This document shows positions 5,456-64,000 of a stretch of 64,000 bases of DNA, piece after piece. Every line of letters begins with the position of its first letter. Positions within the stretch are counted from its first letter, which is position 1. The translations under genes and the position numbers were made by a program. This DNA comes from Selaginella tamariscina (lineage: Eukaryota > Streptophyta > Lycopodiopsida > Selaginellales > Selaginellaceae): positions 402,356 to 466,355 of the forward strand of contig PUQB01000095.1 of NCBI GenBank assembly GCA_003024785.1, written 5' to 3'. Under the pieces are notes generated by a model that did not search any database, was not told where the DNA came from, and worked only from the letters and a program-made list of their open reading frames with translations.

Positions 5456-5682
5456 ATTTTTTAAGGTTATGTAAATTTTAAATTTCAATAATTAAACTAT
5501 CATCCATATATGTATATTCTGTTTCAAAATAAAATGAATATGATTTCTAATTAACTTGTAATCATTAATATTATCTTATATTATATATATATATATATAT
5601 ATATGTTTACTTGTGCTTCATTAAAAATGTCATTTGTGTTGAGTTTAAATGTGTTAATAAATAGGCAAACTGAGAAAATGGT

Positions 5683-5749
5683 GACAGCTGTGGGATTAGA
5701 GCATATTGGAGTTTAAATCAAACGTCTTAAACCACTCAGCCAAGCTGTC
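5683..5749 (-). pseudogene. tRNA-Leu-like pseudogene
   Basis: On the minus strand it begins GACAGCTTGGCTGAGTGG and ends CACAGCTGTC, giving a perfect 7 bp acceptor stem and a leucine-type D arm. The anticodon loop reads TTTAAAC, suggesting UAA. The 5' half of the T arm with box B is missing and no variable arm can fold. It is therefore non-functional. The same deletion recurs in the other minus-strand copies, so it predates the duplications. Confidence 0.65.
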
Positions 5750-6601: not shown

Positions 6602-6661
6602 CCTTGACCGACTGGTACAAGGCGTTCAATCAAGATCGTGGGTTCAACTCCCATGGCTGTC
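6602..6661 (+). pseudogene. tRNA-Leu-like pseudogene, opposite orientation
   Basis: Plus strand. A degenerate D arm (TTGACCGACTGGTACAAGG) is followed by an intact T arm with box B (GGGTTCAACTCC) and a 3' acceptor half ending GGCTGTC. The 5' acceptor strand and most of the anticodon arm are missing. It is the counterpart of the copies at 29631-29700 and 58884-58908. Confidence 0.55.
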
Positions 6662-8920: not shown

Positions 8921-10023
8921 ATGTCTGTCTGTAAGGAAGAGTCGAGGAAGAGTGTCAGCATTGCACAGTTCGCTCTTTCGAAGAAGCGTGTCAAGATTGA
9001 ACACGAGGATAACTGGGGGGAGTTTAATAGATTTTATAGCCTTGGAGAGGCACTGGACAGTCTTCCAAAGATGTGCTTGGTGATATTCTAGGATTCGCAG
9101 CTGAATTTGAATACAGAAAACTACTTATCTTGGGTTCTGTGTGCAAAGCTTGAAAGTTAAGTCAAGAACTCATTATAAGTCAAGTGAAAGTAGTCACTGT
9201 AAATATGTGGCACCATGAGTACGCATGCACATCAGTGTGTCAGTTTCTTGAGAGTTACAGTGGCTCGATCCAGACGGTTAAGATTGAGGGCAGTCGTCGT
9301 CGTCAACGTACTCTGGATTGGAAACCTCTACTGCAAACGTTACTCAAGTGCAGATACTTACAGAATCTTACTGTACGGAACAGTGCCTGGCAGGTAGAGG
9401 ACGACCCATTTGCTGCCGCTGTATTTGAAAAACTTGTTACTTTAAGGCTGCAATACTCGTGGCCTCGTGGGCCAAGTGAACTCAGCATTGCATCTCCACA
9501 CTTGCGGACTCTTGAGATTGAACACTTTTTCAGTGAAGATGGAGTGCTCAATCTGGTGGGCATACAATCTTTGGACTCCCTTCACATTAATGATAGGAAA
9601 TTAATAATGGTTAATGCTGTGAATCTTTTTCAAGTAGGGATGTTTTCAATTGGCTATTACTCGTCAATAGAGTTAAGGTTTGCTGCTCCAAAGCTAAAGA
9701 GCATCTTCACCTTTCAACCAAAGCTAAGCCTAAGAGAGATTATTAAGGATGTTCAAGTGAATACACTGCGTGTAGATCACCCCGATGACCTTATTCGGGA
9801 AATTTGGCCATGTCTGCATGTGCCAAAGCTTGTATTTAATGTGGGAACAAGTGGATATACAGGCCAAATAATAAGATGGATAAAGTGGTTTGAAAGGAAT
9901 AATAAGTCCCTGGTAGAAGTAGTAATGAATATTAGATTTAACACCAAAGCTAACAGGACCTTATCAAGGGTACTAGCCAAATCCTTAAAAAGGGCTCGTG
10001 TTACAGTTACGGGACTTGAATAG
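8921..10023 (+). pseudogene. F-box/LRR-like gene, copy 1 (broken N-terminus)
   Basis: F-box proteins are substrate receptors of SCF ubiquitin ligases. Translation from 8921 gives a basic, NLS-like motif (SKKRVKIEHED), then NWGEFNRFYSLGEA and the start of the F-box (DSLP). Compared with copy 3, the frame is then lost near 9080 by a one-base deletion shared with copy 2. A further insertion lies near 9155-9165, where the tryptophan codon of CKAW has become a stop. The C-terminal 279 codons (9184-10023) remain open and show LRR-like repeats such as LVTLRLQYSW, LRTLEIEHFF and LDSLHI, ending VTVTGLE. A short product from 9184 would lack the F-box. A poly(A) signal follows at 10063. Single exon. Family assignment is from the motifs; the target is unknown. 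Confidence 0.75.
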
Positions 10024-12529: not shown

Positions 12530-13390
12530 CAAGCTCAAGGGGCGGCCCAAAGCCCAACTGCAACTGCTGCCGGGCTTTCAACTGCCCTTGGCTGGGATGG
12601 CATGAGCTTGGCCAGCATTGGCTGAGCTCATGGGCCGGCCGAAAGCCCGGCAGGAACTGTTGTCGGGCTTTCTGCCCACCCTAGCTATGCTGGCTTGAGC
12701 TCGGCCATGCTGGCCGAGCTCATGGGCCGGCTGAAAGCCCGGCAGCAACTGCTACCGCGCTTTTTGCCAATTCTAGTTGGGCTGGCTTGAGCTCGGCCAA
12801 CATGCCGAGCTCATGGGGCAGCCCAAAGCCTGGCAGCAACTGCTGCTGGGCTTTCTGCCCACCCTGGCTATGCTGGCTTGAGCTCGGCCAATGCTGGCCG
12901 AGCTCATGGGCTAGCTGAAAGCTCGGCAACAACTATTGCTGCCGATTCTAGCTAGGTTGGCTTGAGCTCGGCCAGCATTGGTCGAGCTCATGGGGCAGCA
13001 GAAAGCCCGGCAGCAACTACTGTCGGGCTTTCTACCCACCTTGGCTGTGTTGGCTTGAGCTTGGCCAATGCTGGCCGGGCTCATGGGTCGGCCGAAAGCA
13101 TGGCAGCAACTGCTGCCGGGCTTTCTGCAGATTCTAGTTGGGCTGGCTTGAGCTCAACCAGCATTGGTCGAGCTCATGGGGCAGTAGAAAGCTCGGCAGC
13201 AACTACTGCCGAGCTTTCTCCAACCCCTGGTTGGGTTGGCTTGAGCTTGGCTAGCATTGGCCAAGCTCATGGGGCGGCCCAAAGCTCGGCAGCAATTGTT
13301 GTCGGGCTTTCTGCTGCCCCTAGCCACCCACGAAGCCCAGCAGCAAGTGTTGTTGGGCTTTGTGCAACCCCTAGCCAAGTTGGTTTTGAA
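12530..13390. repeat. About 92 bp tandem array with an internal hairpin in each unit
   Basis: The phrase GAGCTCATGGG or a variant recurs at 12624, 12716, 12807, 12900, 12984, 13078, 13170 and 13264, a spacing of 85-94 bp. Each unit contains a near-perfect palindrome of the type AAAGCCCGGCAGC / GCTGCCGGGCTTT around a 3-4 base loop. The array is GC-rich inside an AT-rich element. Element B has only one unit (about 16740-16830), so the array expanded in A. Parts are open as a 31-residue protein repeat of the GRAHGAAES type (12962-13411), but other frames are open too. Coding status is unclear. Confidence 0.8.
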
Positions 13391-20474: not shown

Positions 20475-23400
20475 AACTCTGATATTTGTTGGCATTCTTC
20501 TTGCCTAATCCTCTTGGCATGCCCGCAGCTTTGTCTCTACAATCTCTTGCATAATCCACCTCACCCACATGACATAGAATATGGGCATATGTATCCAACC
20601 TAATTTCCTTTAAAAGCTTACCCAAGCTTGGGACTTATCTCCTACTTTGTTACCACAATTGTAAAGTGCCCACATGATAATTCTTTGCCGCCTTATGCAA
20701 AGGTTAACTATTTTTCACAAGCAAGGTCTTTCTCCCCCTATGCCCGTGCCCTGCCATATCCACTGCAAAGGGAGCCTTGCATAGATATATCCAAATGTAA
20801 GGGAATATTCCTATCATACTTCAACTTTTATAAATGGCACTTCATACTTAACCATTTCCTATATAATGTATCTTGGTTTTTACATGCACAACCCCTCTTT
20901 CACTTACCTCTTTAACTTTAAATGGGACTAGCCATTTCATCTTTAATTTATCATATGGTATTTCCACACGTCACTAGCCACCTTCTTCTAAGACTTCCAT
21001 TTCCTTTTCATTTCTCCTTCTTTTTTTTGGATCGCTTATATAGTCCATAAGGCATATAACCTTATCTCATCAAATTTTCTAGTTCATATAGCCTACTCTG
21101 TAAGGATTTTTTTCTCACCCAAATTGTGCTGTACATTAATCTTAGAAATGGCACAATGTACTCAACATGAGTTATTTCCTCAAGTTCATAAGTTAACTTT
21201 AAAAGCATCATTCATGTTACAACTTTATAAACTGTCTTATGCCCATAAGACTTCAAAAAAGTCTTTCATCTCAGTCTTTTTTTATTTTCTTGAATTACTT
21301 TCTTTAAGACATTTTTAAAAATTTTATTTGTGGATTTACTTATCCATTTCCTTGAGGATAATAAGATGTAAATTCTTATGTTTTTGATAAACTCCTCCAT
21401 ATAGTGTTTGAATTGTTCATTAATAAAGTTCTTTCCTATGTCACTTATTATCTCTTTAGGAATTCCATAACATACTATAATATATTATATATAGCACAAG
21501 CTATTTCATACGCATCAGTTGTCCTCACAGGTTCTAATAATTGATTCCTTCTTGTATTCATAAGATTTATGGGTCCTATAAATCCATTTTCCACATTTGA
21601 AAAGGTTCAAATTGTAAGACCGAATTTAAAAAAATATGTTTGTTTTTTAAGTGGTAATTGTGCTCTTTGGCACTTATCACATTTTCGATATATATCTTTC
21701 CATAATGTTGCCACTTTAATCCAGCATGTAATATTTTCATGATAATTATTTCTTTATAAATGTCCTCCTACCAGACTCGAATGGGCCTCTTTTAAGATAT
21801 CTAAAAACTTCAAAAGGTTTTCACACAACATCTTAATAGTTCATCCTGACCAAACTTATATACTTTTCTTCCACTAAAGAAAAACATCGTGTCCTCATGA
21901 CAAATAACTTTTCTAGTCATTTGTCTCATAGGATGGTGGAATTAGTCTTGTTGACAATAAATTTTTATGTTATTCATTTATGTAGGAAGAATTCACATAA
22001 AATATTGCATCAAGAAAGTCATTCATATGCTGGATTGAAGTTTTCTTGTGTTAAATAGCTTGGTTAGCATGTTCATGCTGCTTCATGGCTTATGTATTAT
22101 TTGTCATTTTATTTTCTATAATATGAAAAACCATTTAGCCAACCTTTATGTTAGGATTGGCTTATTTAAAATGTATAATAAAGCCTTATGATTTACAAAG
22201 ATTTTAATTTTATTAATTAATAAATAATGTTTGAATTTATGAATTACATATACCATTCTTAAAGCTTCTTTTTCTATGGTAGTATAATTTACCCTTATTG
22301 GTATTAATATGCAGCTTACATAATAGACATGACGATTTTTTCCATCTTCATGTGCTTGTATAAGGATAGTTCCTATCCCAATATCTAAAGCATCTACGTT
22401 CACATGGAATTTTCTATCTCATTTAGGATTTACTAGTATAGGTGCTGTAATTAAAGATGTTCTTAATTTATCAAAGGCTTCCTAATGTTTAAGAGTCCAA
22501 CCGTAGGATATCCCTGTTTTTAAAAAGTCTACCTATCCAAACATATAGATTACATGTCCTAAGAAAACTATGGATTTTACAAAAATAAATACATTTATTA
22601 AAATTTAAAGCAACATGATTTTGCTTACATTTCTTAAAACATTTTTCTAAACAATAAAGATGATTTTCTTTATCATTATACATACTAAAATCATTCATAA
22701 AACTTTCATAAAATATAATAAATGTTCTTGGAAAGTATCGATTATAATCCTTTTAAAAATAAAAAGTGCATTACAAAGGCCAAATGACATAATTTTGTAT
22801 GCATATGCACCTTATGGACTTATAAGAGTTGTTTTATGTTGATCCTTAGGAGCCACTAAAATTTGGTTATAACATGAGAATTCATTTATAAAACAATACA
22901 TTTCATGTCTAGTCACACTATCCAACATTTCCTTTATAAACATAATAAGAAAAACATTTTTTTCATAGCATCATTTAGTTTTTTATAATTTACACATACT
23001 TTCAATTTCTCATTCTTTTTAGGAACAATCACAAGTGATGATAACCATTATGCACTTTGTATACAATAAATAAAACCAATACTTAACGGCTTATTTATCT
23101 CCTCCTTAACAAATTGTGCATAATTAGGATTCATTCTATATGCTCTTTGTTCCACAAGTTAATTTCTTAGTAATAATTGTATAGTGTATGTACATAATTT
23201 AGGAGGTATACATTTAAGATCTTTATAGGACTATGCAAAAACATTTTGATACTTTTGAAGAAGTTCAATCCTTTTCTTTGGAATTTCTTATTTAATTCAT
23301 GAGCAATAAATAAGACATTAGGCTTTTTTTCTATGCCTGGATTACTTACTCTAAAGAATTTATGGTATGCAGATATGTATACTTACATGCTGTTCTTACA

Positions 23401-26905: not shown

Positions 26906-28639
26906 TGTCAGAGTTTTAACCCAGAGGGCCAACATGTGACAACACGTGGCTGCTAAGTGACTATTCGGCGTCATCACCCTATGTGAACAACGCTAAGTTT
27001 CCAAAACAACCCCAACGACCCCCAAGGTTAGACTCTAATGCCCAAGTGGACAGAAGACTTAGGGTTTAGCCTAAGTCTCCCACCCCTAAAACCCTTGAGG
27101 GATAACCCTAGTTGACTTAGGGTCTTGCCCTAGAAGACCTAGACAGGCTCATGCCCTAACCCCCATCAAGGAGACGTGTGTTCCACACATACCCCTAGAC
27201 AAGCTAAGGCATCGTCACTTACCCCTTGAGGAATCACCCTCATCCGGGAGTACAACCCCTTTAGGGCGACAAGGGGTACCCTGAACCACGACTAACCCCT
27301 AAGGGTTTGAGTGGCCAAGTTATACCCTAGACCTAGGGCTAGTACTTAGTGAGGACACGAGTGTGCGCCGTAGGCGGACACGAGTGTTCTGCTAAGCAAA
27401 CTCCCTAAGGCTAGGTTTGGGATAACCCTAAGCACATGACCTTGCGAGTGCCTTACGAAAGGGCTTCTGCTAATGAGCTTAGGTTGTTCAACCCCTGGAT
27501 TCCAAGGAGAACACTCCCCTAGCCAAGTGTGCCAAAGCACACCTAGTTACGAGACCTAACCTCCCTTGAGCGGATGCCCAAGGCTTAGCACCCTAGTGCA
27601 AGCACAAGCATGCCTGTTTGCTAGAGTATCCAACCCCTTAGCGACAAGCCCATGACATAACCCCAAAGGGCGTGCCTCGGGCGTTGTACCATGTGACGTT
27701 TAGCCCAGTGTCACATCTCCATGTGACACTGCCTTCCATGATGTGGGCTATCATGCCATAGCCCTTAGATTCAAGAGTTGCACCAAGTACCACAAACGTG
27801 GTTCCTAAATGCCAACTCTAGAACCCCTCAATGAACCCTCAGGAACCAGTAACGTGAACCTGTCAAACAAGATCCCACGCCCACAGTTGGACAAGGACAC
27901 GGATGTGCCTTGCTTGGCCGTGAGTGCTACACCTAGCTTGACGTGGAGGAGGCTGGAGACAAGCCTCAACCTCTGCCTCTTGGAACGTGCATTCCGACAA
28001 GACCTCCCAGGCATGGATTCGCCAACGTTAAGGGTAAGCTACCCCGAAGGTGGGACGTACCCCTGGCATCTGGAAGTTAGGGCGGCACAACAGAGGGTTG
28101 TACCTTAACGACACAAGCTGAAGCTTGCACCGCAGAAGAGCAACGAACTCATTCATGAACCCAGGAGCTCTCCTACGTATACTCTACCTTATTTATGTGA
28201 CGGAGCCCCCCCCCCCTCTTTTCCTATATTGTTAGTGGGCTGGCACTGAATTTTAGCCCCTTAGACAAATTAGCAATATGAGCTATAACTCACCCTTACT
28301 CCTACCCCTAAACCCTACCCAAGGGGGTGGGGTTTTAGGGCGTGGGTTAGGGCAACCCTAGGGTGTTCCTAACCCTACTTAACACGCCGAACTCATCTGC
28401 AAAGACCAATCAACCTATTCGGGACGTCAAAATTGGGGGTGGTTTCTAGAAGGTAAGTTCTAGCTTCGCTTAGAGTTTCCTGCAAATACCTAATGACACC
28501 CGGCCGGACCATCACCAGATACCCAAGTGCACTAAGCGGGCCTGTTTCCTACTACATCTAGGGTCCATCAACATAGTACAGTAGGTAACAACAGTCAACG
28601 TCCAAAGTAAAGGGTCGAGTCATAGTAAAAATTATGATA
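26906..28639 (-). mobile_element. Solo LTR with 5 bp target-site duplication
   Basis: A 1734 bp LTR of the same family and orientation as 1357-3181. It is flanked by GTGGG at 26901-26905 and 28640-28644. The empty site survives in section A copy 1 near 5970 (AATGTGGGAAAAC), which proves the insertion. No internal region or second LTR is present, so this is a solo LTR left by recombination. It inserted after the section A duplication that separates copies 1 and 2, or into one copy only. The left terminal inverted repeat is intact (TGTCAG) and the right end reads ATGATA. Confidence 0.9.
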
Positions 28640-28644
28640 GTGGG

Positions 28645-30150
28645 AAAACCTAAGGAATGTTTTATCTTCAGTTTTCCATGATTGATATGTATATGTATAT
28701 TTATGGATATGTATATGCATATACATATATTTAGTAGATCTATTAAATACCACTACATAAGAAGTAGAGACCCTCACAAAACCACCTAACCTCTCGAGCT
28801 GTTTTTAGTTTCATGTGCCCTTAATTCTCTATTAGATCTAGGTATAGCTTCTTAAGAATATTTTAACTTATACCTTTTTAGGGAATATTCTTTGATTTGT
28901 TATATGAGTCATAACAATGCATATACATATTTATAAATAAGTGTAAAACATGTTTACCCACACCATATGCTAGTATTTTTAGTATATATGTTATAAATAT
29001 ACTGAGTTTATTCTACATGAAAACAAAAGTAATATTTTTAAAAGAATCAAAATCAATAGTTAAGAATGGATCTTTAATTTAATTTAAATAAATTAAATTG
29101 ATATATTAATAAATTAGGGTGAAGAAATATAACCACAAACATACACATGTAGTAAATAGTTAAAAACATATATAAGTATTAATGTTTGTATATATAGAAG
29201 TTACAGATAATGCTTTCTTAAGAACTTTCCACAAACACACATATATAACTGGCACTTTGTCACCTCATTCCTGTGAGCTAAATAAATATGTGAGTGGGTC
29301 CAAGAGCAAATTAAAATTTTCTTTCCATATTTAATACACCCTTCTCTCTCTCTCACACGAGGAGCATTCTTGTATGCACATGTATACATATCTATGTATG
29401 CGAATCTTTTATAGATATAAATGTTTTGTATGTGTCATACAATGGTAAAAAATTATATGTAACAGTTTTGTGATTGCAAACAACATATTGATCGAGATTT
29501 ATAGAAAATCCCTTTAAATGTTTTTAAGTACATTTGTATTTAGCCCCATGAATAAATTTTTAAACTTTATTTAGATGTTTTTAGGTACATTTGTATTTAG
29601 CCTCACGAATAAATTTCTAAACTTTATTTAGATTGACCGAGTGGTATAAGGCGTTCTAGGCTTCTATCTCAAGATTGGGGTTTCAATTCCCACGGCTGTC
29701 ACTTTATTGTATTCATAAATTTAAGATGGTACTTGTATAGAACAAGCCGTTTGGACGTTATTAACGAGCATATTTTAGGTTTAAGATGGTACTTGTATAA
29801 CAATAATAATAAATATAAGTAGTAATAATACATTTGAGTGTATATATATATATTGTTTCATATTTATATTATAAATATAAATTTGAATATGTATATTATT
29901 ATATAATTAATTGCATTTAACACAAATATTTTTATGCAGATTGTTTAATATGATCATTTGAAAACGTGATACTTCATGTTTATTATTGATATATACTATT
30001 CATTTGAAGAATATAAAAACCATTTATTGCAGTGTTGCTATGTATTCATTGTTTGATAATTTAAAACCTGATGCGTATAATATACGACATAATGTGTACA
30101 AAGTACTTACGACACTAACCGTAGTGAAAGAATGCTACGGATGAATAATT
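28645..30150. repeat. Segmental duplication, section A, copy 2 (second part)
   Basis: Continues section A after the solo LTR and matches 5970-7330 and 58205-59529. It contains about 170 bp near 28745-28915 that are absent from the other copies, and a direct duplication of about 65 bp near 29505-29630 (two copies of TTAGCC..CGAATAAATTT-type sequence). No gene is seen. Confidence 0.65.
29631..29700 (+). pseudogene. tRNA-Leu-like pseudogene, plus orientation
   Basis: Counterpart of 6602-6661 but longer. It has D arm TTGACCGAGTGGTATAAGG, an anticodon region containing CTAGG, a T-arm remnant (GGGGTTTCAATTCCC) and a 3' end GGCTGTC. The 5' acceptor strand is replaced by AT-rich sequence, so it cannot form a tRNA. 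Confidence 0.55.
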
Positions 30151-31217
30151 AAAATAGATTAATAATTAAACATTTCTATAGCATTTTTTTACTACACTAG
30201 TCTGGCTATACACACAAACTGCAAGCAGCTAGGCTTGTCATTGGGTGTGCTCCACTAACTCTATAATAGTGGTTCGGGATGGGTCCTGGTTTCTCTCTCT
30301 CTTTCTGTATGTTCTCTATCTATGAAGATGCGTCCCATCGGTATATCACACACAAACACAGACCCTGTGTGTGTGTGCGCATGGGGAGGGAGGGAGGGAG
30401 TACGAGTGAGTGAACATAATCTATAATGATTCGACAAATTTTCTACTCTCCAGTGAGAAAACGGGCTTAGAGGTAACTTATTAAACATTAAATTATATCG
30501 ATTAAACTATTGAATAACGCATTTCATGTTCACAAAAGTCTAAAAGTTGAATTTTTTTAAACATTAAGTCTAATTTCTATTTAAATATACATATGTACAG
30601 GTCATTATATTGTATCTGTGCAAGTTCACGTATGATAATTAGTTTTGAATATTTTGGAAAATGTGTAATACATGTCATTATGTTTTGTATATGTATATAC
30701 ACATGGAGCCGTTGTATATGTCTATTTTGACTTGTTTATGCACATACAATAATATTGTAAGGTTATACATATCTCTCACAAGCAGAATAATAATAAACTT
30801 CTTTTTTTTAATATATATATATATATATTCTTTCATTTAGCAGTGTTAACTAGAAACCGTGTTTTATTGTGTACCAATATTCTCCGTACAAATACACCAA
30901 TGAAATATTAAAATCATACAAGAATCACAACGAGAGTGTATTCATTTATATTCAATGATGTGTAATATATAATTTTCTATAATATACAGGTAATATTTAT
31001 ACACGCTACATACCAAACCGGTAGGCGTATAGAGGCGGGTTCGAGAAAACTCAAATATAAAGAATACTTATTAATGTTTATAAGTAATAGGTATTATTTA
31101 ATATGTTATGCATCACGTATATAATCTGATTCTAACCTAGGTTACACATCATTCACCTATTAGTCTTGCACAATTGTAAACTTCCATTTCTCCAGATGTT
31201 GAAATGAATGTGAGTTA

Positions 31218-38274: not shown

Positions 38275-39340
38275 GAGATTGAATTTTTTTAAACTTAAGT
38301 CTAATTTCTATTTAAATATACAGATGTACAGGTCATTATATTGTATCTGTGCAAGTTCATGTATGGTAATTAATTTTGAATATTTTGGAAAATGTGTAAT
38401 ATATGACATAATATTTTGTATATGTATATACACATGGAGCCATTGTATATGTCTATTTTGACTTGTTTATGCACATACAATGATATTGTAAAGTTATACA
38501 TATCTCTCACAAGCAAAATAATAAAAAACTTCTTTTTTTTATTATATATATCCTTTCATTTAGAAGTGTTAACTAGAAACCGTGTTTTATGTGTGGTACA
38601 AATACACAAATGAAATATTAAAATCATACAAGAATCACAACGAGAGTGTATTAATTTATATTCAATATACAGGTAATATTTATACACACTACATACCAAA
38701 CCGGTAGGCGTATAGAGGCGGGTTCTAAAAAACTCATATATAAAGAATAATTATTAATGTTTATAAGTAATAGGTATTATTTAATATGTTATGCATCAAG
38801 CGTTCTACACACACGTATATAAGCTGATTCTAACCTAGGTTACACATCATTCAGCTATTAGTCTTGCACGATTGTAACCTTTCATTTCTCCATATCTTTA
38901 AATAAATGTGAGATACACTATATATATATATATATATAATATATAAAATCTGTTCAAAACATGCGAATGATCTATAATATACTAGTTTTAAAAATGTTAG
39001 AAACAATAAAATATTTCAATCCTGTGTAAGAAACATACTTAAGCATGAAAATATATAAATATTTACTTTAACCATTAATTATTACAAAGAATATCCACAG
39101 CATATTAACTGCATGGACTAGCCATCGGTTCACTTGCACTCTTGCGTGAGCGTGAGCGTGAGTTGTTCCGTATATAAATATGGCAACCACTTAGGTCATA
39201 TTCCAGGGTTCTCTAATTCATTTACTGTGAGAAATTCAGTGCGTTTTTACGTTCTGTAATATACACAAACAAGGGAAATTAGGCTATATAGTGTTGCAAT
39301 TGAGGTTTAGAGGACATCTCCATCTTCATAGTCACCTGAA
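38275..39340. repeat. Segmental duplication, section B, copy 3 (upstream of F-box copy 3)
   Basis: Matches 7800-8920 and 30540-31956. Its left part (7330-7800 in copy 1) is missing because the Copia fossil joins here. The GC-rich island is at 38694-38726. No gene is seen upstream of the promoter. Confidence 0.75.
39131..39177 (+). promoter_or_regulatory. Promoter of F-box copy 3 (TATA box, G-box lost)
   Basis: TATATAA at 39171-39177 with the same surroundings as copies 1 and 2, but the hexamer at the G-box position reads CACTTG (39131-39136) instead of CACGTG. The start codon is at 39341. Confidence 0.55.
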
Positions 39341-40431
39341 ATGTCTGTTTGTGAGGAAGAGTGGAGGAAGCGTGTCAGCATTGAACAGTTCCCTCTTTCG
39401 AAAAAGCGTATCAGGATTGAACATGAGGATAACTGGGGGGAGTTTCATAGATTTTATAGCCTTCGAAAGGCACCGGACAGTCTTCCAAGTGATGTATTTG
39501 GTTCTATTCTAGGATTCGCAGCTGAGTTTGAATACAGAAAATTACTTATCTTGGGTTCTGTGTGCAAAGCTTGGAAAGAACTCATCATCAGTCAGGTGAA
39601 AGTAGTCACTGTAGATATGTGTCACGATAAGTACGCATGCACATCAGTTGTGTCAGTTTCTTGAGAGTTGCAGTGGCTCGATCCAGACAGTTAACATTAT
39701 GCGCAGTTTTAAACATACTCTGGATTGGAAACCTCTACTGCAAACGTTACTCAAGTGCAGATACTTACAGAATCTTACTGTACGGCGAGGTAACTGGCAG
39801 GTAGAGGACGACCCAGCTGCTGCCGCTGTATTTAAAAAACTTGTTACTTTAAGGCTGTGTGGCTTGCAGCTTCGGCAAAGTGAACTCAGCATTGCATCTC
39901 CACACTTGCGGACTCTTGAGATTGAAGAGTTTTTCAGTGAAGATGGAGTGCTCAATCTGGTGGGCATACAATCTTTGGACTCCCTTCACATTCATGATAA
40001 GAAATTAATAATGGTTAATGCTGTGAATCTTTTACACGTAGGGATGTTTTCAATTTACTCGTCAGAAGAGTTAAGATTTACTGCTCCAAAGCTAAAGAAC
40101 ATCTTCACTTTTCAAACAAAGCTAAGAGAGATTATTAAGGATGTGCAGAATGTTCAAGTGAATACATTGCAACTCGATGTATATTTCTCACATAATGACC
40201 TTATTAGGAAAATTTGGCCATGTCTGCGTGTGCCAAAGCTTGTATTTAATGTGAGAATAAGTGGATGTACAGGCAAAATGTTAAGATGGATAAAGTGGTT
40301 TGAAAGGAATAATGAGTCTCTGGTAGAAGTGGTAATAGATATTGGAGTTAACACCAAAGCTAACAGGACCTTATCAAGAACTAGCCAAATCCTTAAAAAG
40401 GGCTCGTCTTACAGTTACCGGACTTGAATAG
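39341..40431 (+). pseudogene. F-box/LRR-like gene, copy 3 (two frame changes)
   Basis: Most complete copy. The first 107 codons (39341-39664) contain an NLS-like KKRIRIEHED and a full F-box: SLPSDVFGSILGFAAEFEYR, then KLLILGSVCKAWKELI. One extra T near 39655, absent from copies 1 and 2, shifts the frame. The rest is open for 259 codons (39648-40427) with LRR-like repeats (LVTLRLCGLQL, LRTLEIEEFF, LDSLHIHDKK). Near 40379 two bases are missing compared with copy 1, so the last about 17 residues are altered and the stop comes four bases early. The product class is an SCF substrate receptor. As it stands it would make only a 107-residue F-box fragment. A poly(A) signal AATAAA follows near 40472. 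Confidence 0.8.
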
Positions 40432-46659: not shown

Positions 46660-49600
46660 TTCTGATATTTGTTGGCATTCTTCTTGCCTAATCTTTTGGC
46701 CTGCCCACAGCTTTGTGTCTAAATCTCTTGCATAATCCACCTAACCAAGTGAGGGCACTAGTTGATTGAGCTTCACATGACCATAAGGATGATCATGTAA
46801 TCTTGCTCAATTTTGGGGTCAACATGACCCACATCTACTGAGAAACTTTTATAACATATAAGCCCATTCCATAACGGCTTGTTTGCAAGGATCTCATTTC
46901 TAAAGTTAAAAATAAGATTTTGTTTTGGCCACTATTGTGTTATAACATTTACAAGATATCTTACTCATAAAAAAAAATATATTCAATAAACAATATATCA
47001 TAATTATGCACTTGTATTACTAAAATAATTATAAAGAAATAACAAGTGTGAAGACTTACTTCTCTATTAACGATTCATGCATTACTCTCCTCTATACCTC
47101 TTCATAGCTCCTTTGTAGCTCTCTATAGCCCCCTATAGCTTTTTATATCCCTAAATGAATCATGTCCTTCCTTACCTCCTTGTACCAACCGTCATAATTG
47201 TCCACTTCCTGCCTCTATAAGATTCTTTTTATCATCGTAGGGTTTTTCCTATACACACCATTTTCTTACTGCTTTCTTAGGAGTTATTCCTCCAATGTAG
47301 GGAAGTTTTATGTATGCAGTGTCCTACATGTTATATTTTGGCCTCTAATGCTATTCCCACCTTGAATCTTGTATGTCCTCACTACAATTTCCATGTTCCT
47401 TCATTCTCCAACTAATCTTTCAGATAATTCATTTCATACTCTTCCTTATACATGGCAAACTCAGCCTTCAACTTCTCTATTTCTTGCACCACGGAAGCCA
47501 TCTACAGTCGGAGACTCTGGTTCTCCATCTATAGTCGCTGAAGTTCCTCTCCTAAACCGTTAGGAGTGCTCCTCCTTAACAAAGTTCCTTATGCGTCTTG
47601 GTAATCTTTTGGTTCAACAACAGTTACAAGCTTGCCTCCTAGAATTGATGGACTAGGAGTCCTCACCTTCATCATTCAAACTTTGATCTTGCTAATCGTT
47701 GCTTGCATTGTGTTCATCTTAGACATTATCATCGTGTCCACCACTTCTACGATAAGCCTCTTGATTTCTACCCTATCCTTCACTATGTATCCCATGTTCA
47801 CAAGTTGGTTGTACAATGATGAAGCTAGTTTTGACACATCTTGCGTCGCAAAGCTCACCTTAGCTGACTTGTTGAGTATTTCTTACTGCATACAAGACAA
47901 GGCCTGCACCAGCTGAACTTCAACTCCCATTGACACTTCATCCTGTTAGAAAGGCTTCCAACGCTTGCCACTCTTTGTGGACATCACTGGCTCCATGTAC
48001 TTTGTTGCAATTGCTTTTGCCCCTAACTCGTAGCATTGACTTGCCACTACACCTACTTGATGCATAGGGTAACCTCCATGCCCATATGTACCTCTTCCTT
48101 GTGATGTGTATCTTGTTGCTCCATGATTGAACCAAGGTTGCCATCCTTCCCATCCCTTCTCTTGGTGAAAGAGCTTCCCTAGTGAGAGGTAATTGTAACA
48201 AAGTTACAATCGCCTCAAAACCGTTTTTGGGAGAATATCCTTGGGAATCCTATTATTAAATTCCCTAACTCTTGGGAAACCTTTTCTTGTGACTATGCAG
48301 TAGACTTCTCCAAGCGTATTTCTGGTAACTTCTCTTGTAATAATGTCACAACCTTTCCCTTTCCCTTAAGCCAACTAAGCAAAGGGCCAATTGGTGTTTA
48401 TGAGAAGGCCCCATGTTTGCTTGGATCTTTTGCCCACATATCTCACAATCTTTACCTAAGTAATCAACCACTAGGTTAGAATTATGAAAATCTCCTGCGG
48501 TTCCTACACCTCTTTTGACATCTCCTGCATCTTCTCATCATACTGCTCTACCTACTTCTTTTGTGGTTCCTACTACAACTCTTTCTGCAATTTACCATTG
48601 GATTGCTCCACCTGGCTTACTAGTGTTTGCTCTTGTAGCTTCTCACTACCTTATGTACTAGTTCCTCCAGAGTCTTCTACATAGGGTTTCTCATTTCCTT
48701 ATGTGATCCCATAGTCATGAGCAACTTCATAATCAAGGCCCTCTTCGCATGCCATTCCTTTTCAAGCCTCTTCATTTACTTGAATGATGTCCACCACATG
48801 CTTCTTCTTCGCTTTACACACCGACCTTCTCATGGGCATCACTCAAGAAATCTTCTACTTCTTCGATGGTGGTGTCTTCGTAGTCCTACTGCATTTATGA
48901 TTGCTCTTGCATGGATACAACCATTAGTGAACCATATCATGGATTTTGGGAAGAATAGATGAGGCAGATCTGCCATTAAGCTGTAGAAAGCACTTATGCT
49001 ATAGGAAAAGTCGGAAGGGAAACAAGCTCAAGAAGGATCCAATGGTAAGCAGTAGGAGAGTGCAAGTAGGACTACAAAGACACCACCATCGAAGAAGTAG
49101 AAGATTTCTTGAGTGATGCCCATGATAAGGTTGGTGTGTAAAGAGAAGAAGAAGCATGTGGTGGAGAGCATTCAAGTAGATGAAGAGGCTTCAAAAGGTA
49201 TGACATGCAGAGAGGGCCTTGATCATGAAGCCGCTCATGACTATGGGATCATAGAAAGAAATGAGAAACCCTATGCATAAAACTCTGGAGGAACTAGTAT
49301 ATAAGGTAGTGGAGAAGCTACAAGAGCAAACACCAATAAGCCAGGTGGAGCAATCCAATGGTAAACTGCAGAAAGAGTTGCAGTAGGAACCACAAAAGAA
49401 GTAGGTAGAGCAGTTTGATGAGGAGATGCAGGAGATGTCAAAAGAGGTGTAGGAACCGTAGGAGATACTGCAGGAGAAGCTGCCAAAAATACGCTTGGAG
49501 AAGTCCGCTGAGCAATCACAAGAAAAGGTATCTCGTTGGTTGCTCCCACTGAGAGAAGAGTGGTGTTTAGTCCTAGTGCATAGTGCATGTTGATGAGCTT

Positions 49601-51110
49601 TTGCTTAGGCTGTCTTGATTTCTAGACCTCGACTATGTCAACTCCAATCACGGGAAGAAGTTTGTCACATCCCCTACGAACAAGCCATTGTGGAATGGGC
49701 TTATACATTGTAAAAGCTTCTCAGATGTGGGTCATGTGCATCGTGGCCCCAAAATCGAGCCAGATTACATGATCATCCTCATGGTCATGTGGAGCTCAAA
49801 CAACTAGTGCCCTCACTTGGTTAGGTGGATTTTGTTAACATTCTTCTTGCTTAATCCTCTTGGCCTGCTCGCAGCTTTGTCTCTACAATATGTCCTATCC
49901 ACTTGCAATAGTTACACACGCCCTTCTCACTTGGTAAATCACTTGTGACCTTTGAACTACCACCAATGTTGTCACTACCATGAGCCTTTTAGAAACTGCT
50001 TGTGGATGGACTGCTATCTTCTTGACCTGAGCAACTCCTCCTTAACCTTGAATTTGAGCCAGCTACAAAGAGTGTAGCTCCTAGATTTTCTTGTTCGACA
50101 GATTCTTTTGGGCCTTAGCAGCGATGCTTACATCTCAACAAATGTCTTTCAAAACTTTTCTCAGTGTTTCATGTTTTGGTCATGTGGCCAAAGTGTTTAG
50201 TAGAATTGCTTTGTTGTCTGCTTCCTTTATGACCTCACATAAATTGGTGAGTTGGGACAAAATAAACTTCATTCGGCCTAGAAATGTTGTTGGAGACCCG
50301 TCAGATCCCATTCTAAGCCCGAAAAACTTCCACTTTCTTAGTTTTCCTCACTTACTTGATTGCCAAATGTGGTCTTCAAGGTCGTTTAGTTTTTAGCAAC
50401 TATCTTTGTGAAGTTAAGATGGTGGTGATGAAGCTTTCCAAGTCCAATGCCCATAGAAAATAATGCCTTGTCATTCCTCACTTGCCAAGTCTTCTTCATC
50501 AGTGGCCGTTGATTTGAGCTATGTCCCCTAAACAATTCAAAGACAATTGTCTCATAGAAAAATGAGAAGTAAAAGTTCGTTGGACAAACTTTGGCTCAAC
50601 CAAAGCATGTCCTACTGCAGCAAAATATTTATGTCCATGTTGGGGATTGGACTCGCGAGACTCTAAGGCATGTTGTGACAAGTAACTAACTTTGCCAATG
50701 CATGTCACAATCTGGAAGGGACAAGAGGATGATGGCATAGTTGCTAGCAATTGAGGAGCTACTAGCACTACAATTGCTACACCAACATCACTAGGCTTAG
50801 AAATAAGTATATCAAACCTGAAACCATTGTCAAAGGGCATGAGGACTTTGTCTTCCTCATTAGATGAGACTGCTGGCAAGATCTTGGTCTTCTTTTGAGA
50901 CTGCTCCTCTTTTTTATGTGATGGTTGTTGTGCCTATTGAGTGCCTTGCTGCTGGCACTGTCCAGCTTTTGAGTGCCATAATTCCTCTTCAAGTAAAATT
51001 GGCAACATGTTTGCGTCAAAGTGAACGTTGTGACTAATGATAATTTTTTGTGCTTGAAATTATACAATTTGTATTCCTTGCTCTCCATAGACTATCCCAA
51101 CATGATGTAA
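46660..51110. mobile_element. LTR-retroelement debris, partly Copia, rearranged
   Basis: On the minus strand, 51088-50500 shows similarity to the Copia integrase-to-polymerase junction and to the region before integrase. About 49930-49880 shows a gag-type zinc knuckle pattern (CNYC, then H and C spacing). 47858-47400 includes stretches that look coiled-coil-like. The margin sequence at 46660-46740 also occurs at 20475-20600 (edge of the gypsy fossil) and 49840-49890. The order of parts is not that of an intact element and a long inverted repeat lies inside. It is broken many times and old; more than one insertion is probably mixed here. Confidence 0.55.
48240..49600. repeat. Long inverted repeat within retroelement debris
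   Basis: About 48290-48890 is the reverse complement of about 49065-49560, separated by about 175 bp. A landmark is GAAGAAGTAGAAGATTTCTT near 49095, which is exactly complementary to AAGAAATCTTCTACTTCTTC near 48847. A second, outer pair lies at 46735-46900 and 49665-49832 (CCAAGTGAGGGCACTAG against its complement), so the inverted relation spans about 3.1 kb with the intervening left part unpaired. Confidence 0.75.
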
Positions 51111-56225: not shown

Positions 56226-57911
56226 GTGTGATTATGCATATATATAGGAGGACTCACTAAGCTAAATTAAAGAACGTACAATTGATAGGTGTATGAAAAA
56301 GAATATTTAAGATACACACGATCGATAGTTTGTGTATGTATTATTAATTTAAGTGTCTTTAAAACCCATATGTATATATATATATATATTAAAAAGCATT
56401 TGAAATACTCAATATGAACCTCACGTATTAAAAAATAGTTCGTATTGCAATAAAAGTTAGAAATGACTTTAAGTAACACTTTGTATAAACATGAAGTATA
56501 GTGCTTTAAATAATCAAATAATGAAGTTTTTAAATATCATGAAGTATCCTGTTTTTAAATTATCACATCAAAAAAAAATAAAGTTCTTATGTGCATAATA
56601 ACATTTGTGTTAAATGTAATAAGTCAGTGATCACACCATAGATATGTTTATAAATCTATAAGTTATTTATATGTGATACTTGAACATATGTAGAAGAACT
56701 ATAAATATATACATTATTAACAGATACACATATATACACAAATGAGTAAAGAAAGGATTTGTACCATTTTAGATGATTGAAAATCAAAGTGTACTAAAAT
56801 ACATATTTATATATTGTATCTTAGCTTAGTTGCCATTTGTAATATCTATATCTTTTATTTAAATAAATACAATTATTATATAAAATAATAAAAACCAATA
56901 TATAGTTTTAATAAATGACAAACTTAATTATGCCTCATGTTTCACACTCATATAATAAGCATAATCATATTATAAGTATAATTATGTATTGTTGTATATA
57001 CTCATGAATTAAAGTATTAAGGTATTATTTAAGAAATGAAATATGTAAATAATCACATATAAGAGGGAGATGTGTATATATTTTGATGTATTTAAACGCA
57101 CACATGCATGTATATATTTTTATATAAAATGGAAGCATGGTGTGTTAGATACATGCTCCAGGAAGATATACATCTGCTATACGTTAGAAAAGCATATTGT
57201 TAACCGAGGGAATATTTAGAAAAAGAATGTTAGCGTGAAAATATTTTAACCCATGAACTTAAAATATATATAAAAAATTAAAATTCAAACTTCAAAATAA
57301 ATTTATTTAAACATATATATTATAATGTAATATAGTTATTTAAACTTATGGCATTATTAGTACTGCTTCTTTCATTTCAGTTTTTATAAATTAAATAAAT
57401 GTTTTTAATCATTTCATTTTGATTTGTTTTAATGAAATTTATATATTTAATTCATTTTATTCTATTTCATTCTAATTTCCAGCAAAAATAAAATAATAAC
57501 AAAAATACTTTATTAAATTTTAATAAAGTGAGTGATTAAACATTATTGCAAATATCATATCAAGTTTTTAAAATAAATTTTTTCTTGATTTAATTTAAAA
57601 AGTTTAGTGGTTGTAATAAAATTTAATTTATATTTTAAATTATTAAGTATATTTTGCAACCTTACTTCTCATATTATAAAGATTTTATAGGGTATGTAAA
57701 TTTTAATTTTAGTAATTAAACTATTCATTTCATATATGTATAATCTATTTTCAAATAAAAATGAATATGATTTTTTTATAATTTATTAATTATTATATAT
57801 ATATATATATTATATATATATATATATATAGACACACACTTGTGCTTCATCAGAAATGTCATTTGTGCTGAATTTAAATGTGTTAATAAATGGCCAAACT
57901 TAAAAAATGGT

Positions 57912-57968
57912 GACAGATGTGGGATTAGAACCTAAATCCAATGTCTTAAACCACTCGGCCAAGCTGTC
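57912..57968 (-). pseudogene. tRNA-Leu-like pseudogene
   Basis: Minus-strand copy of the family at 5683-5749, further shortened. It keeps the D arm (TTGGCCGAGTGGTTTAAGAC) and one mismatch in the acceptor stem; the anticodon arm is largely gone. Confidence 0.6.
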
Positions 57969-58883
57969 ATTTACAACACTATTATATATCTTTGTATGTA
58001 CACATGCATTTATGTATAATTATGTGTGTGTACATAGAATATATATGTGTCTAGATGTATTAAGTTTTATGGTTGATATATCCGTATCATTCTTATATAT
58101 AATATATGATTACTTAATAAGTTTGTAAATAAATGACTGTATATATATCTTATAAAGCCATGTATTTTTGTTAAAATCCCTAAGAATATATTTAAAACTA
58201 ATGTGAAAAAACTTAAGGAATGTTTTATCCTCAATTTTCCCTGATATGTATATGTATATTTATAGATATGTATATGCATGTACGTATATTTAGTAAACCT
58301 ACTAAATATATGTACATGCATATACATATTTATAAATAAGTGTAAAACATGTTTACCCACACCATATGCCAATATTTTTAGTATATATGTTATAATATAC
58401 TGAGTTTATTTTACATGAGAACAAAAATAATATTTTTAAAAGAATCAAAATCAATAGTTAAGAATGAATCTTTAATTTAATTTAAATAAATTAAAATATA
58501 TTAATAGATCAGGACGAAGAAAATATAACCACAAACATACACTTGTAGTAACTAGTTAAAAACATATATAAGTATTAATGTGTATATATATAAAAGTTAC
58601 AGATAATGCTTTCTAATAACCTTCCACAAACACACATATATAATTGGCACCTTGTCACCTCATCCATATAAACTAAATAAATATGTAAGTGGGTCCAGGA
58701 GTAAATTAAAATTTTCTTTTCGTATTTAATACACCTCTCTCTATATATCTCTCTATGTCTCTCTCACATTCTCATATGCACAAGTTCATGAATCTTTTAT
58801 AGATATAAATGCATCTATGGTTTGTATGCGTGGTACAATGGTAAATAGATTATATATAACAGTTTTGTGATTGCACACAACAA

Positions 58884-58908
58884 CTAGTGGTTCAATCCCA
58901 CGGCTGTC
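58884..58908 (+). pseudogene. tRNA-Leu 3' fragment
   Basis: Only the T arm (TAGTGGTTCAATCCCACGG) and the 3' acceptor half survive. It is the position-equivalent of 6602-6661. Confidence 0.5.
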
Positions 58909-60054
58909 ATTCTAATATATTGTATTCATAAATTTAAGATGGTACTTCTATAAACAACTATTAACGAGCATATACTAAAATATGCTGGCATTTGCATTCA
59001 CTTATAAGTGTAATTACTATTGTTTAAAATATAAAGTATTTATTTATAGAATTTAACTTGAACATGGAGTTGTTAATTACCCTCATTTAACATACATATC
59101 CATGATATACATACATGTATAAGTGGTCCAAGCACTAATAAAGAAGATAACACATAAACAAGTTCAATAAATAATAATAATAATAAATATAAGTAGTAAT
59201 AGTATATTTGAGTATGTATATATTTGATTCTGCTTCATGATGTTTTATACTTATATTATAAATATAAATTTGAATATGTATATTATTATATAATTAATTA
59301 ATTGCATTTAACACAAATATTTTTATGCAGATTATTTAATATGATCGTTTAAAAACGTGGTACTTCATGTTTATTATTGGTATACTATTCATATGAAGAA
59401 TATAAAAACCATTTATTGCAGTGTTGTTATGTATAGTTTAAAACATAAAAAACTTCATTGTTTGATAATTTAAAACACAATGCATATCATATGCGACATA
59501 ATGTGTACACGCATAGACACACATAAGTAAGAATTCACCCCAGTTCTAGCTCCAGAGAAAAGAGGCTTTGTCTTGAGAGCTTTCTGTGTGGATGAGTTGA
59601 GCTGGGAAAGGCCTCCATGGGGGTGCCACCATGGCGCCACACTGGTGCCATGTGTTTAGTGAAGTTTTTTAGTAGATTTGTTGTTTGGTTGGGTTGTCTT
59701 GACTATGTGGTAGTAGAAGCATTTGTTGGTGATAAGGTGGTGTAGCATACAGTAGGTAGTTTCTTAGGAGTAGTAGTAGCGAGAGGTGGGATCTGGCACG
59801 GTCGGATCTATGAACAGGAAATAGGGCGACTGCAAGGAGTGAAATGGATATGGCTGTAAAATGTCGAGGGCTAAATCTGTGCGCAAGGGCAGGAATTGCA
59901 AATGGGCATGACGAATTTCAGGCTATTCGGCGGGGATTGTGCAAAATCGGAGAGATCAGCCAAGCAGGCAATTAGGGTTCTGGTCGAAATCAGGGTTTAG
60001 GGTTTAGCGTAGCAGAGTAAGAGCAGGGTGGACAGAGCAGGATAGGAGCAGGAA

Positions 60055-60969
60055 ATGGTAGAGACGAGGAGGATACGCATGTTGAGGGAAGGGTTGTCGA
60101 GCCAAGCAGAGGAGACAGGGGGTGCTGCAAAGTCGGGGGAGGATGGGCGGCTGTGTGTGAGAGCTCCGGAGGCAGGGATGGAAGGCGATCGAACAGGGGC
60201 AAGAGTGGAATCGGATGGTGCGGATAGCGCGGGTAAGAGTATTGATGGCTCGGGCAGTGAGCTAGGAGCAAGTGAGCAGGGGGACGACGGCTGGATGGAC
60301 TTGCATTCAGATGGAGCAGCAAAAGACAATCCGAAGGGCGTAGCGGGTGCGAGTGCAGTGCTGTTAGGGATGAGTGGAGACATCGTACAGGAAGTTCTCC
60401 AACCACTCTTAAGAGCGACAAACAATGAAGCAGTATTGGGGGCTCATAGTTGGACTTTGTGTGGCGCTTGACGCAGGAGCACGGTTAGTGCGGGCGTTTT
60501 GCGACTCGGAATTGATGGCTAAGCAGGTTCGAGGTCAACCAGGCGTGAAGAAGGCGTCGCTCGGGTAATGCATGAATGTGTGATGATCTTGATCACGCAA
60601 TTTGAGCACTTCGAAATGGTGCATGTCCCACGGGAGGAGAATGTGCGGGCAGATGCTCTATCAAATCAGGCGGCAGCTCTGGCAGCGGTTACCAAGGGTG
60701 GTACTGAGGAGCTGCCTGAGATAGAGAGGAGCGTGAAGGTGCTTGACACGCTCACCAAAGTCCCAGAAGAACTGGAAGAGTGGATTCGTGTGCTGCGGCT
60801 AGAGAACTCTTCAAGTACTTTTTTGAGGACAGTACAAGCAGAAGCTGGGAGCTGGTGTCAAGCAGGATTGAGTTGGTTACTGATGGATTCGGTACTTTCT
60901 CATGGAGAAGCTTGGAGATGGACAGTGGGAGTTGGCTTCGCGTGGCCCTTCATCCAGGGGAAGGGCTAG
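60055..60969 (+). pseudogene. LINE first ORF: RNase HI-type domain after a low-complexity N-terminus (broken)
   Basis: The start at 60055 opens a frame rich in G, S, D, E and A for about 80 residues. An RNase HI fold follows: DLHSDGAAKDNPKGVAGASA (catalytic Asp about residue 86), ATNNEA (catalytic Glu about 125), then in a shifted frame YWGLIVGLCVALDAGARLVR and CDSELMAKQVRGQ (catalytic Asp codon at 60503), and in a third frame FEMVHVPREENVRADALSNQ (catalytic Asp codon at 60652). All four acidic positions survive, despite frame changes near 60430 and 60570. RNase H degrades RNA in RNA:DNA hybrids. HVPREEN followed by ADAL resembles the archaeal-like RNase H known in plant L1 elements and Tat-type gypsy elements. 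Position ahead of ORF1 is unusual. Confidence 0.75.
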
Positions 60970-61387
60970 AGGCAGCTTTGAGGAGCATGGCTGAAGATCG
61001 GTTCGGTTGGCCAAAAGGCACTTCACAATACAAAGATGGAGCCGAAGGCATGTGAAGTTTGTTGGAGTGGGAAGCTACCAACTGCTTATGTGTGGAGCCT
61101 ATCGGAGAATGAGGAAGATGCGCAGAGAGCGCACAGAATTGCAGACTTTTTGCGCAGACAGGAGGCTGAAGATCGTGCTTGGAAGAAGCAGGAAAAAGTG
61201 CCTTCTCCACAAGGTGGGCATCACAATGCACTGGTCCCTTGGAAGCCTCCTTCGTCATGCACAGAAACGTTGAGCTCGTTGCTTCATACATTTGCGAATG
61301 CTGAACATGTCCGCTTGCTGGAAAGAATGTGGTAGATCCACCTCGGGCAGAGGTTGCAATGGAAGAGCCAACTAAAGTTGTGAATGC

Positions 61388-62345
61388 GTGGGCAAACAGG
61401 GGAGGAGAGAAATTAAGAGCAGCAGGTGGAGTGGCAGTCCCTGTAGAGAAAGTGGTTCAGTTTCACCTGGTGTCCGCTCCAAACGTTCTAGTGAGGTACT
61501 CAATGAGCATGGAGAAATGGAGATGGTCTTTGACCTATCGGAGGATGAAGAAGAAGAGTTTATGCACCCAACACCGACTGGAAGCGGAAGGAAACCGGTT
61601 TATGATCTTGTTCATGGGGCGATATCCACCGACTGGGGAAACAGGGACTGGGTAAATGCTGCGATGGGGGATCCAGGGCAACAGTGTTTAGTTACGCGTA
61701 TTCGGAACCTCGGCCGGGGATGTTTTGAAGCAATGTTGAAAGACGCCAATGGTTTGAAGGAGCTACTGAACCGAAAGACATTGCGAATGGGACCCTACCG
61801 TGCTGTTCTAGCAAGTGGATGCCTTTCTTCTCAGTGGAAGACAAGGATGGCATCTTGGCTGCAAGTGAAGGCAAGGAGTTGGAGGTATGGGGATTACCCC
61901 ACTCTTCTGCGAGACAGAAGAGCTGATGTATCGGTTGGCGGTAGACCTGGGTGCAACGGAGTACACCATCTCAGAGCCGGTACATGGGATTCAAGGTCCG
62001 GTTAAGATGCGGGTCCCTGGAAATCGAACGTATCCAACAACCATGTGGGTTGAGCGAGCTCGGGTGGGCTTGGTACTCAAAGGTGGTGAGGGGGCTTGTC
62101 GGTTTTGCAAGCTACAAGGCCACAAGGTTGATTAGTGTAGGAAACTGGCAGCAAAGAAGCAGAAGCAAAGGGAGGATGTGACCAAAGCGGGACGAGAGGA
62201 CAAACAGGATGGATGGCAGACCCCCAAGAAGACTCGAGCCTCACCCCTAGCTAGTCCAAGGCCAATGACGATGACGGGGAACCGTTTTGCGAGTCTGGAA
62301 CAGGAAGGAGAACTAGACACGCCTGCACCGAACCCAAAGAAGTGG
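61388..62345 (+). pseudogene. LINE ORF1-like region with CCHC zinc knuckle (broken)
   Basis: ORF1 proteins of L1-like elements bind the element's RNA. An acidic stretch (EMEMVFDLSEDEEEEF) is followed by DLVHGAISTDWGNRDWVNAA and AMLKDANGLKELLNRKTLRM. In a shifted frame (61887-62135) comes VKMRVPGNRTYPTTMWVERA and a CX2CX4HX4C knuckle: CRFC, GH, then C at 62136. A TAG (62133-62135) lies just before the last cysteine, where TGG would be expected. A lysine-rich tail follows (LAAKKQKQREDVTK). Typical plant L1 ORF1 has the same order of a DUF4283-like block and a CCHC knuckle. The DUF4283 assignment is inference. Confidence 0.65.
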
Positions 62346-62882
62346 TAAAGGCGCAAACAATCCAATGAGTAGCAAACAGTGGTCAAAGAAAAAGAAGGCC
62401 AAGATTTCCACCCTTGGCAAAACAGAGTTGGCAAGAACGTTGCACCAAAACGGTCTGAGCTGGTGGTTGGAAAAGGCAAAAAGGTTGTGACAGACGTACG
62501 TTCGGAGAAGGTGGCTGAAACTCGAGAGCAATCGCTTCCGAAGGAGAAGGAGGTAGAGAGAGAGAGCGATCAGGATCAAAGCGACTGTACCCATGGAGGA
62601 AGAGACAGGATGGCTCGCAGGAGTTGCTTGTAACGCGGAAATAGGTATTGGAGACATCCCCTTGATTGCACCAGGATTCGAGAAGGAGCAGGAGCTGGTG
62701 CAGTTTTTGAAGATGATGTTGGGTAAAAGAATCCAGTGCACGTCGTAGTGCAAGACTTCGCACCAACGATGGACTATGTGGTAGCGGAGCTGCAGTTTGC
62801 AGAGGAGTTGACATTGCCAATGGACTTGGTGTGGGTAGTGGACACCGGGCAGATCCCGGATCCGGGTTCAACTTCCTCTTAA

Positions 62883-64000
62883 TGACGAGCTTTAATGTGG
62901 TTACATGGAATGTCAATGGGCTGGCAAACGATGGCATAGTGGGAGTGAAGCGACGAGCAAGGATAAGTCAACATTGCATGGGGGTTCGTAATATGGTGGA
63001 CGTGCTGTTAGTACAGGAGCACCATGTTGCAGCAGTTTATGTGGGGGAGGGGAGAGTGTTTTTCTTGACAGGGAAAACCTTCTGGAATCCAGCCACATGC
63101 CACACAGGGGGTACGTTGATTGGACTGGCACACCGTTGGTTTGGATTGATTGTCCGCGAAGTCGGGCACAATGTCTGGTGTTGGAGGTATGGGGTCGGCG
63201 AGTTGGGATCCTCAACATATATGCATGCAGTCAGAAGCGTATAGAACTATGGCAGAGACTCATACAGTGGATGCCGAATGATGTGGACGAGTGGATTATT
63301 GGAGGTGACTTCAATATGTTGGAAATGGAAGACGACTCATCAAACCCAATGGTGGCTCGGCACATATTGGATGCCAAGAGGACAGGATGAGCTGCAAGTA
63401 TGGAGGTTGTTGCGATTGCACTTTGGTATCACGGATGCTTATGGAATGGATGGGTACGTACCTCATAATCCCCGATTTACTTGGTCAGGTGGCTTGCCGG
63501 GAGGCAGGACAATCAGTAAACGGTTGGATCGAGTGTACCTTTCGGGATGGTTTCTAGAACGGAGTGGATGCCAAACCCGCTGGCAGGGGTTTGGAGTGTC
63601 AGATCATGCCCCAGTCTCAGTATGCGTGAAGGTCTCAGATCAGCCAGCAGCACAACGTAGGCCAGCAGCTATCACTCGGAGCTTATACGAGATCGGATAT
63701 CATGAGCCATCTGGAACAAGAATGGAATGGGAGACAAGATGCAGGTGAAGAGCTTAGCAGCATACCTGGAATATGTGTCGCAATATTGTAGAGAGGTTCA
63801 GAAGCAGCGGCACCAACGGGTGTTTACCAGGATACGAGCGGTTCGCGAGAGCTTAGTTGCAAGTGAACGATTGTTGGAGCACTATCCCGGACACCCATGG
63901 TTGACTGCTCGTCAAGCAGCATTGACACACCATCTAGAACAGTTGGAGGGGAAAAGGCAATGGACTGTCATCGTCTTAGGGATCTGCGTTGGTACATGAA
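62883..64000 (+). pseudogene. LINE ORF2, apurinic/apyrimidinic-type endonuclease domain (partial, broken)
   Basis: The endonuclease of L1-type ORF2 nicks the target DNA to prime reverse transcription. From the ATG at 62883 the classic motifs follow in order: VVTWNVNGLAND, VDVLLVQEHHV (metal-binding Glu), GILNIYACSQ, WIIGGDFNMLE (Asp and Asn), PRFTWSGGLPGGR, KRLDRVYLSG and GVSDHAPVSV (Asp and His). They lie in two alternating frames with switches near 63130 and 63390, so the copy is defective although every catalytic motif is present. The last 250 bases read as the charged linker before reverse transcriptase, which lies outside the window. Confidence 0.85.

Follow-up and report, generated by a model that had tools for sequence, protein, structure and literature searches.

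RNases H remove RNA from RNA/DNA hybrids. Plant and oomycete retroelements have acquired an RNase H on repeated occasions (PMC5348765; PMC10508981), and in some LINE clades the enzyme likely removes the template RNA during first-strand synthesis (review, PMC2881922). In Ta11-type plant L1s and in oomycete L1s, the domain closes ORF2 at its C-terminus, following a CCHC motif (PMC5348765), which agrees with the position that the first-pass annotation of the present locus had given for plant L1s. The oomycete Utopia LINEs carry an archaea-like RNase H upstream of the reverse transcriptase (RT), a position called unique, and Utopia families generally encode one protein with a restriction-like endonuclease (PMC4640811). 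The same source names an arginine that replaces a histidine as the mark of the archaea-like RNase H type (PMC4640811). Among Tat LTR elements the position of the RNase H varies, with five structures distinguished, and in some of them it lies upstream of gag (PMC10508981).

The window analysed here is a stretch of 64,000 nucleotides from Selaginella tamariscina. A retroelement copy in its last part shows, on the plus strand and in this order, a leader, an RNase H domain, a zinc knuckle, an overlapping ORF1 stop and ORF2 start, and an endonuclease. In this one copy, the RNase H lies before ORF1. It is probable that the locus represents a decayed LINE copy with an Exo_endo_phos endonuclease, two or three ORFs and an archaea-like RNase H ahead of a zinc-knuckle ORF1, and that this order was inherited by its family. 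The first-pass annotation had proposed the same succession of a 520 bp leader, RNase H, zinc-knuckle ORF1 and ORF2 endonuclease, and this succession is borne out, with a measured leader of 524 bases. Because a single copy was found, and the RT and the 3' end of the element lie outside the window, the RNase H-first order is established for one copy, and its inheritance by the family is what we infer to be most likely. Being seen in one decayed copy, the order could also be private to it.

The archaea-like RNase H domain (RVT_3) is predicted at about 60307-60675 on the plus strand from Pfam, relatives in the PDB and a coding score, and is broken by two frame changes. The RNase H motifs SDGA, NNEA (60421-60432), CDSEL (within 60497-60514) and HVPREENVRADAL (60622-60660) are all found on the plus strand, distributed over three stretches in two reading frames. 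Without joining of the frames, the last stretch (60523-60966), which holds the last third of the domain, matches RVT_3 with E=4.8e-5; its 23.7 bits exceed the cut-off of this family (21.6 bits). The first stretch (60046-60468) matches no Pfam family. When the frames were joined, with an X placed at each of the two frame changes, the match covers positions 2-123 of the 123 positions of RVT_3 (E=3e-13, 50.2 bits). The other family matched by the joined reading, SdrD_B (E=0.23), is under its cut-off. The complete RNase HI signatures reported at 60055-60680 by the first-pass annotation are confirmed by these matches, and the last stretch exceeds the RVT_3 cut-off even in its unjoined form.

The best solved relatives of the domain are RNases HI, namely 4e19 (E=3.5e-13), Rv2228c (3hst; E=8.5e-11) and 3u3g (E=3.8e-9), and ST0753 (3aly) is matched with E=0.005. 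Among solved sequences, six distinct ones reach E<=0.01 (4e19, 3hst, 3u3g, 4h8k, 3aly and 2ehg), with 3aly and 2ehg both representing ST0753. At the level of sequence, the matches of the predicted domain to RVT_3 and to solved structures are well beyond chance. Like 3aly, the structures 4e19, 3hst, 3u3g and 4h8k are presumably of the archaea-like type. The 3aly structure serves as the archaea-like RNase H reference in PMC5348765. All residues of the catalytic set, D (SDGA), E (NNEA), D (CDSEL), R (VPRE) and D (ADAL), are present in the Selaginella domain. The five motifs align with 4e19, 3hst and 3u3g, and with 3aly from the NNEA region onward; 4e19 has Q at the E position. From the alignment, we take the arginine of VPRE to be the putative residue that stands in place of the histidine. 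The full-length RVT_3 match and the D, E, D, R, D set, by which an archaea-like RNase HI is recognized, are both found here.

The RNase H is preceded by an N-terminal extension (60055-60306, plus strand), whose ATG at 60055 follows an in-frame stop and opens the RNase H frame. The 5' leader (59531-60054, plus strand) contains several short upstream ORFs and has stops in each of the six frames. An upstream ORF of 13 codons starts in the leader with the ATG at 59631, whose context is GCCACCATGG. The start of the leader (59531-59700) folds as RNA better than 198 of 200 shuffles (z -2.76). Coding potential was scored with a codon-position model trained only on frame-assigned pieces of 61469-63960, and scores were compared with those of 500 dinucleotide shuffles. 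The leader score is matched by 144 of 500 shuffles on the plus strand and by 304 on the minus strand, and the leader thus has no coding signal. The score of the N-terminal extension (60055-60280) is matched by 2 of 500 shuffles on the plus strand (70 on the minus strand), and that of the RNase H (60281-60690) by none (95 on the minus strand). The following linker (60691-61468) is likewise matched by none of 500 on the plus strand and by 15 on the minus strand. Since the leader lacks a coding signal and the ATG follows an in-frame stop, the RNase H appears to be the front of an ORF and not the end of one.

In two host-flank stretches scored on both strands as controls, 12 to 359 of 500 shuffles matched the score. 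Two of four control islands of higher G+C content also beat the shuffles (47500-48277, minus strand, 0 of 500; 49000-49777, 2 of 500 on the plus strand and 4 of 500 on the minus strand), as does an open frame of the F-box-like family at 9154-10017 on the plus strand (0 of 500). As stretches outside the element score too, the coding test indicates protein-like composition and not membership in the element. The two islands that score as coding adjoin or overlap an inverted pair (48490-48890/49466-49065) with 92.5% identity over 402 aligned bases.

The 5' edge of the insertion was located by alignments within the window. The host segment carrying the element (56726-59530) is a paralogue of 4429-7292 and shares 84.3% identity with it over 2969 aligned bases (blastn). 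The last part of this segment (59171-59509) also shares 82% identity with 29797-30100. The similarity of the two window paralogues to the element-bearing copy stops at 59530, and both continue without the element. The first continues at empty site A (7163-7352), which shares 89.2% identity with 59401-59530, and the second at empty site B (30012-30169), which shares 75.2% identity with the flank over 109 aligned bases, gaps included. Past the break, 7294-7352 and 30111-30169 are collinear, with 84.7% identity over 59 bases. Because both paralogues run on together past the break, they are read as empty sites, which place the start of the insertion at 59531, within a base or two. The predicted 5' edge obtained in this way does not depend on any assumption about the element.

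This edge bears on whether the RNase H could be the ORF2 C-terminal end of an upstream Ta11-type L1 lying head-to-tail with the element. Such an origin would agree with the ORF2-end position of the domain in Ta11-type plant L1s and oomycete L1s. With an edge at about 59531, the leader directly adjoins the host DNA and no further copy fits in between; the first 524 bases of the insertion carry no coding signal. In its three forward frames, the leader matched no ORF2-like Pfam family; its lone Pfam match, Ribosomal_L15e (E=0.036), scores 14.1 bits, below the cut-off of 27 for that family. A stop precedes the opening of the RNase H ORF, and coding continues past the domain into ORF1. No poly(A) lies behind the domain, and across 59531-64000 no fifteen-base stretch with at least 11 A's was found. 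The 5' edge, the non-coding leader and the downstream coding sequence make the tail of an upstream Ta11-type L1 very unlikely, close to refuted. The first-pass annotation had argued against an upstream tail and had seen no poly(A) between the RNase H and ORF1, and both points are supported here.

The window itself is a cluster of diverged segmental copies with 84-90% identity, which surround an F-box-like gene, matched at 39332-39658 by Pfam F-box-like (E=6.5e-4, under the cut-off). The segmental pairs are 31460-35342/38850-42846, 8383-10099/31460-33127 and 4429-7292/56726-59530. A G+C-rich pair, 1573-3182/27056-28640, shares 95.9% identity over 1624 aligned bases and is the most alike among the listed pairs longer than 100 bases. 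No coding signal was detected in the two parts of this pair that were tested (1573-2350 and 27400-28177). A tandem array at 12532-13314 consists of about 8.5 copies of a 93-base unit and is partly open as a repetitive protein. An RT_RNaseH fragment of the LTR-element type was identified at 22149-22418 on the minus strand (8.1e-21), and it was not matched by tblastn with the LINE studied here. Scans of the window for tRNAs and Rfam families found nothing.

Behind the RNase H, a coding linker (60676-61468, plus strand) leads to the ORF1 core; it is predicted from the coding score, and the frame-joined reading of a part of it gave no Pfam match at E<=1. An ATG at 61036 and a stop at 61053-61055 in another frame could mark an ORF boundary between the RNase H and ORF1. 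Owing to the frame changes in this region, the RNase H may be either fused to ORF1 or encoded by a separate ORF. The ORF1 core (61469-62882, plus strand) was delimited from the sequence and its frames and contains a zinc knuckle at 62097-62138. The knuckle has, by eye, CX2CX4HX4C spacing of the CCHC type from 62097 on, with a stop codon inside. Plant L1 ORF1 proteins are characterized by a DUF4283/RRM domain plus a CCHC motif. Neither the core nor the knuckle gave the Pfam match by which a plant L1 ORF1 would be recognized, with no family found at E limits of 1 for the longer reading and 10 for the shorter ones. Part of the core (61650-62130) may resemble the plant ORF1 domain DUF4283, a likeness that received no support in Pfam searches at loose limits.

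The TAA stop of ORF1 (62880-62882) overlaps the start of ORF2 by one base, its last base being the A of the ORF2 ATG (62880-62884). ORF2 (62882-64000, plus strand) opens with an endonuclease of the Exo_endo_phos family (PF03372), by which a LINE is recognized, with E=1.1e-10 in the frame-joined reading; the two unjoined pieces give 0.0062 and 0.005, both under the cut-off. An Exo_endo_phos-type endonuclease is present in Ta11-type L1s too, and an RT is expected after it in ORF2 of a LINE. Here ORF2 runs past the end of the window at 64000 ahead of any RT, and the 3' end of the element also lies beyond 64000. Between 60055 and 64000, counting by eye gave about 14 frame changes and three stops in frame, which indicates a copy long dead, barring assembly errors among them.

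The gene that follows ORF1 also bears on whether the RNase H-first order could belong to a Tat LTR element. An RNase H before gag has been published for Tat elements of four mosses and one clubmoss (PMC10508981). At the present locus, the next gene is coupled to ORF1 by overlapping stop and start codons and encodes an Exo_endo_phos endonuclease, and not a protease-RT. The LTRs and the protease-RT after gag that characterize Tat structure #4 were not found, and an endonuclease of the LINE type follows the knuckle ORF instead. The leader is not repeated elsewhere in the window, beyond which a far LTR could lie. With a LINE-type endonuclease downstream, the element does not resemble a Tat LTR element, and a Tat origin of the order is highly improbable.

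Further copies of the element were searched for. In blastn, 59401-64000 matched only itself within the window, apart from host-flank matches, so no second copy of the element body was found there, and a three-frame tblastn of the element across the window also returned only itself. When viral contigs were scanned with the RNase H and the endonuclease, the two scans yielded 6 and 2 pattern matches, among which no relative was confirmed. A scan of genome contigs gave 114 pattern matches that were reduced to 5 loci, all prokaryotic. A plasmid protein search retrieved 4 records, from archaea and bacteria by organism name.

A single copy in the window and in the viral and genome contig scans is also what a one-off chimera would leave, in which the RT jumped from the LINE RNA to a host or Tat RNA encoding an archaea-like RNase H and the domain is private to this copy. 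Donors exist, as plants have both cellular and Tat archaea-like RNases H (PMC5348765; PMC10508981). A jump onto the 3' end of an mRNA should leave a stop, a 3' end and a poly(A) between the RNase H and ORF1, and none of these was seen. Instead, A-rich tracts are missing, the frame that ends the RNase H is open as far as 60966, and 60691-61468 scores as coding. We therefore regard the chimera as unlikely.

Under the preferred reading, a LINE family with an inherited RNase H ahead of ORF1, the RNase H would be made from the 5' end of the element RNA, as a fusion with the RNA-binding ORF1 protein or as the product of a small ORF that precedes ORF1. It may thereby be packed together with the element RNA. 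During or after target-primed reverse transcription, the enzyme would remove the RNA from the RNA/DNA hybrid, as expected from the function of RNases H, and thereby clear the way for second-strand synthesis. ORF1 is probably made in larger amounts than ORF2, which would supply many nuclease copies per particle, acting in trans to the RT. The chances are about even that a LINE lineage, perhaps of a non-flowering plant, fixed an archaea-like RNase H that precedes ORF1 or is fused to it; this would have happened independently of the RNase H at the ORF2 tail of Ta11 L1s, and in parallel to Tat elements with RNase H upstream of gag. If so, the RNase H would be delivered with the RNA-binding protein and not with the polymerase. 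That would raise the question of whether target-primed reverse transcription ends differently when the RNase H comes with the RNA-binding protein than when it comes with the RT.

No LINE with an RNase H upstream of ORF1 was found among the matches listed for the literature on RNase H, LINE domain order and ORF1, a body of sources that mostly excludes subscription papers and was accessible in part. Utopia, with RNase H upstream of the RT, and Tat, with RNase H upstream of gag, make the novelty smaller than the first-pass annotation had supposed, and the interpretation of an RNase H at the front of a LINE is partly supported. An RNase H-first order is described for other retroelement kinds, and none was found for a LINE ahead of ORF1 in the literature searched.

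Like the Ta11-type plant L1s, the Selaginella element is of the non-LTR kind and has an archaea-like RNase H, in which R putatively replaces H. Unlike in the Ta11-type and oomycete L1s, where the domain is at the end of ORF2, the Selaginella RNase H is in the first coding region, before ORF1, and the end of its own ORF2, where a second RNase H may lie, is outside the window. With Utopia it shares an archaea-like RNase H in an upstream position, which in Utopia is upstream of the RT; it differs from Utopia in its Exo_endo_phos endonuclease, its separate ORF2 and the placement of the RNase H before ORF1. The one-base overlap of the ORF1 stop with the ORF2 ATG resembles that of the SART1 LINE (UAAUG, according to the title of the paper). 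Unlike Tat Ty3/gypsy structure #4, an LTR element, the Selaginella element continues with a LINE-type endonuclease and shows no terminal repeat in the window. If a LINE too carries an RNase H ahead of ORF1, no tie between nuclease and polymerase is needed, and two unrelated kinds of element would have arrived at the same unusual order.
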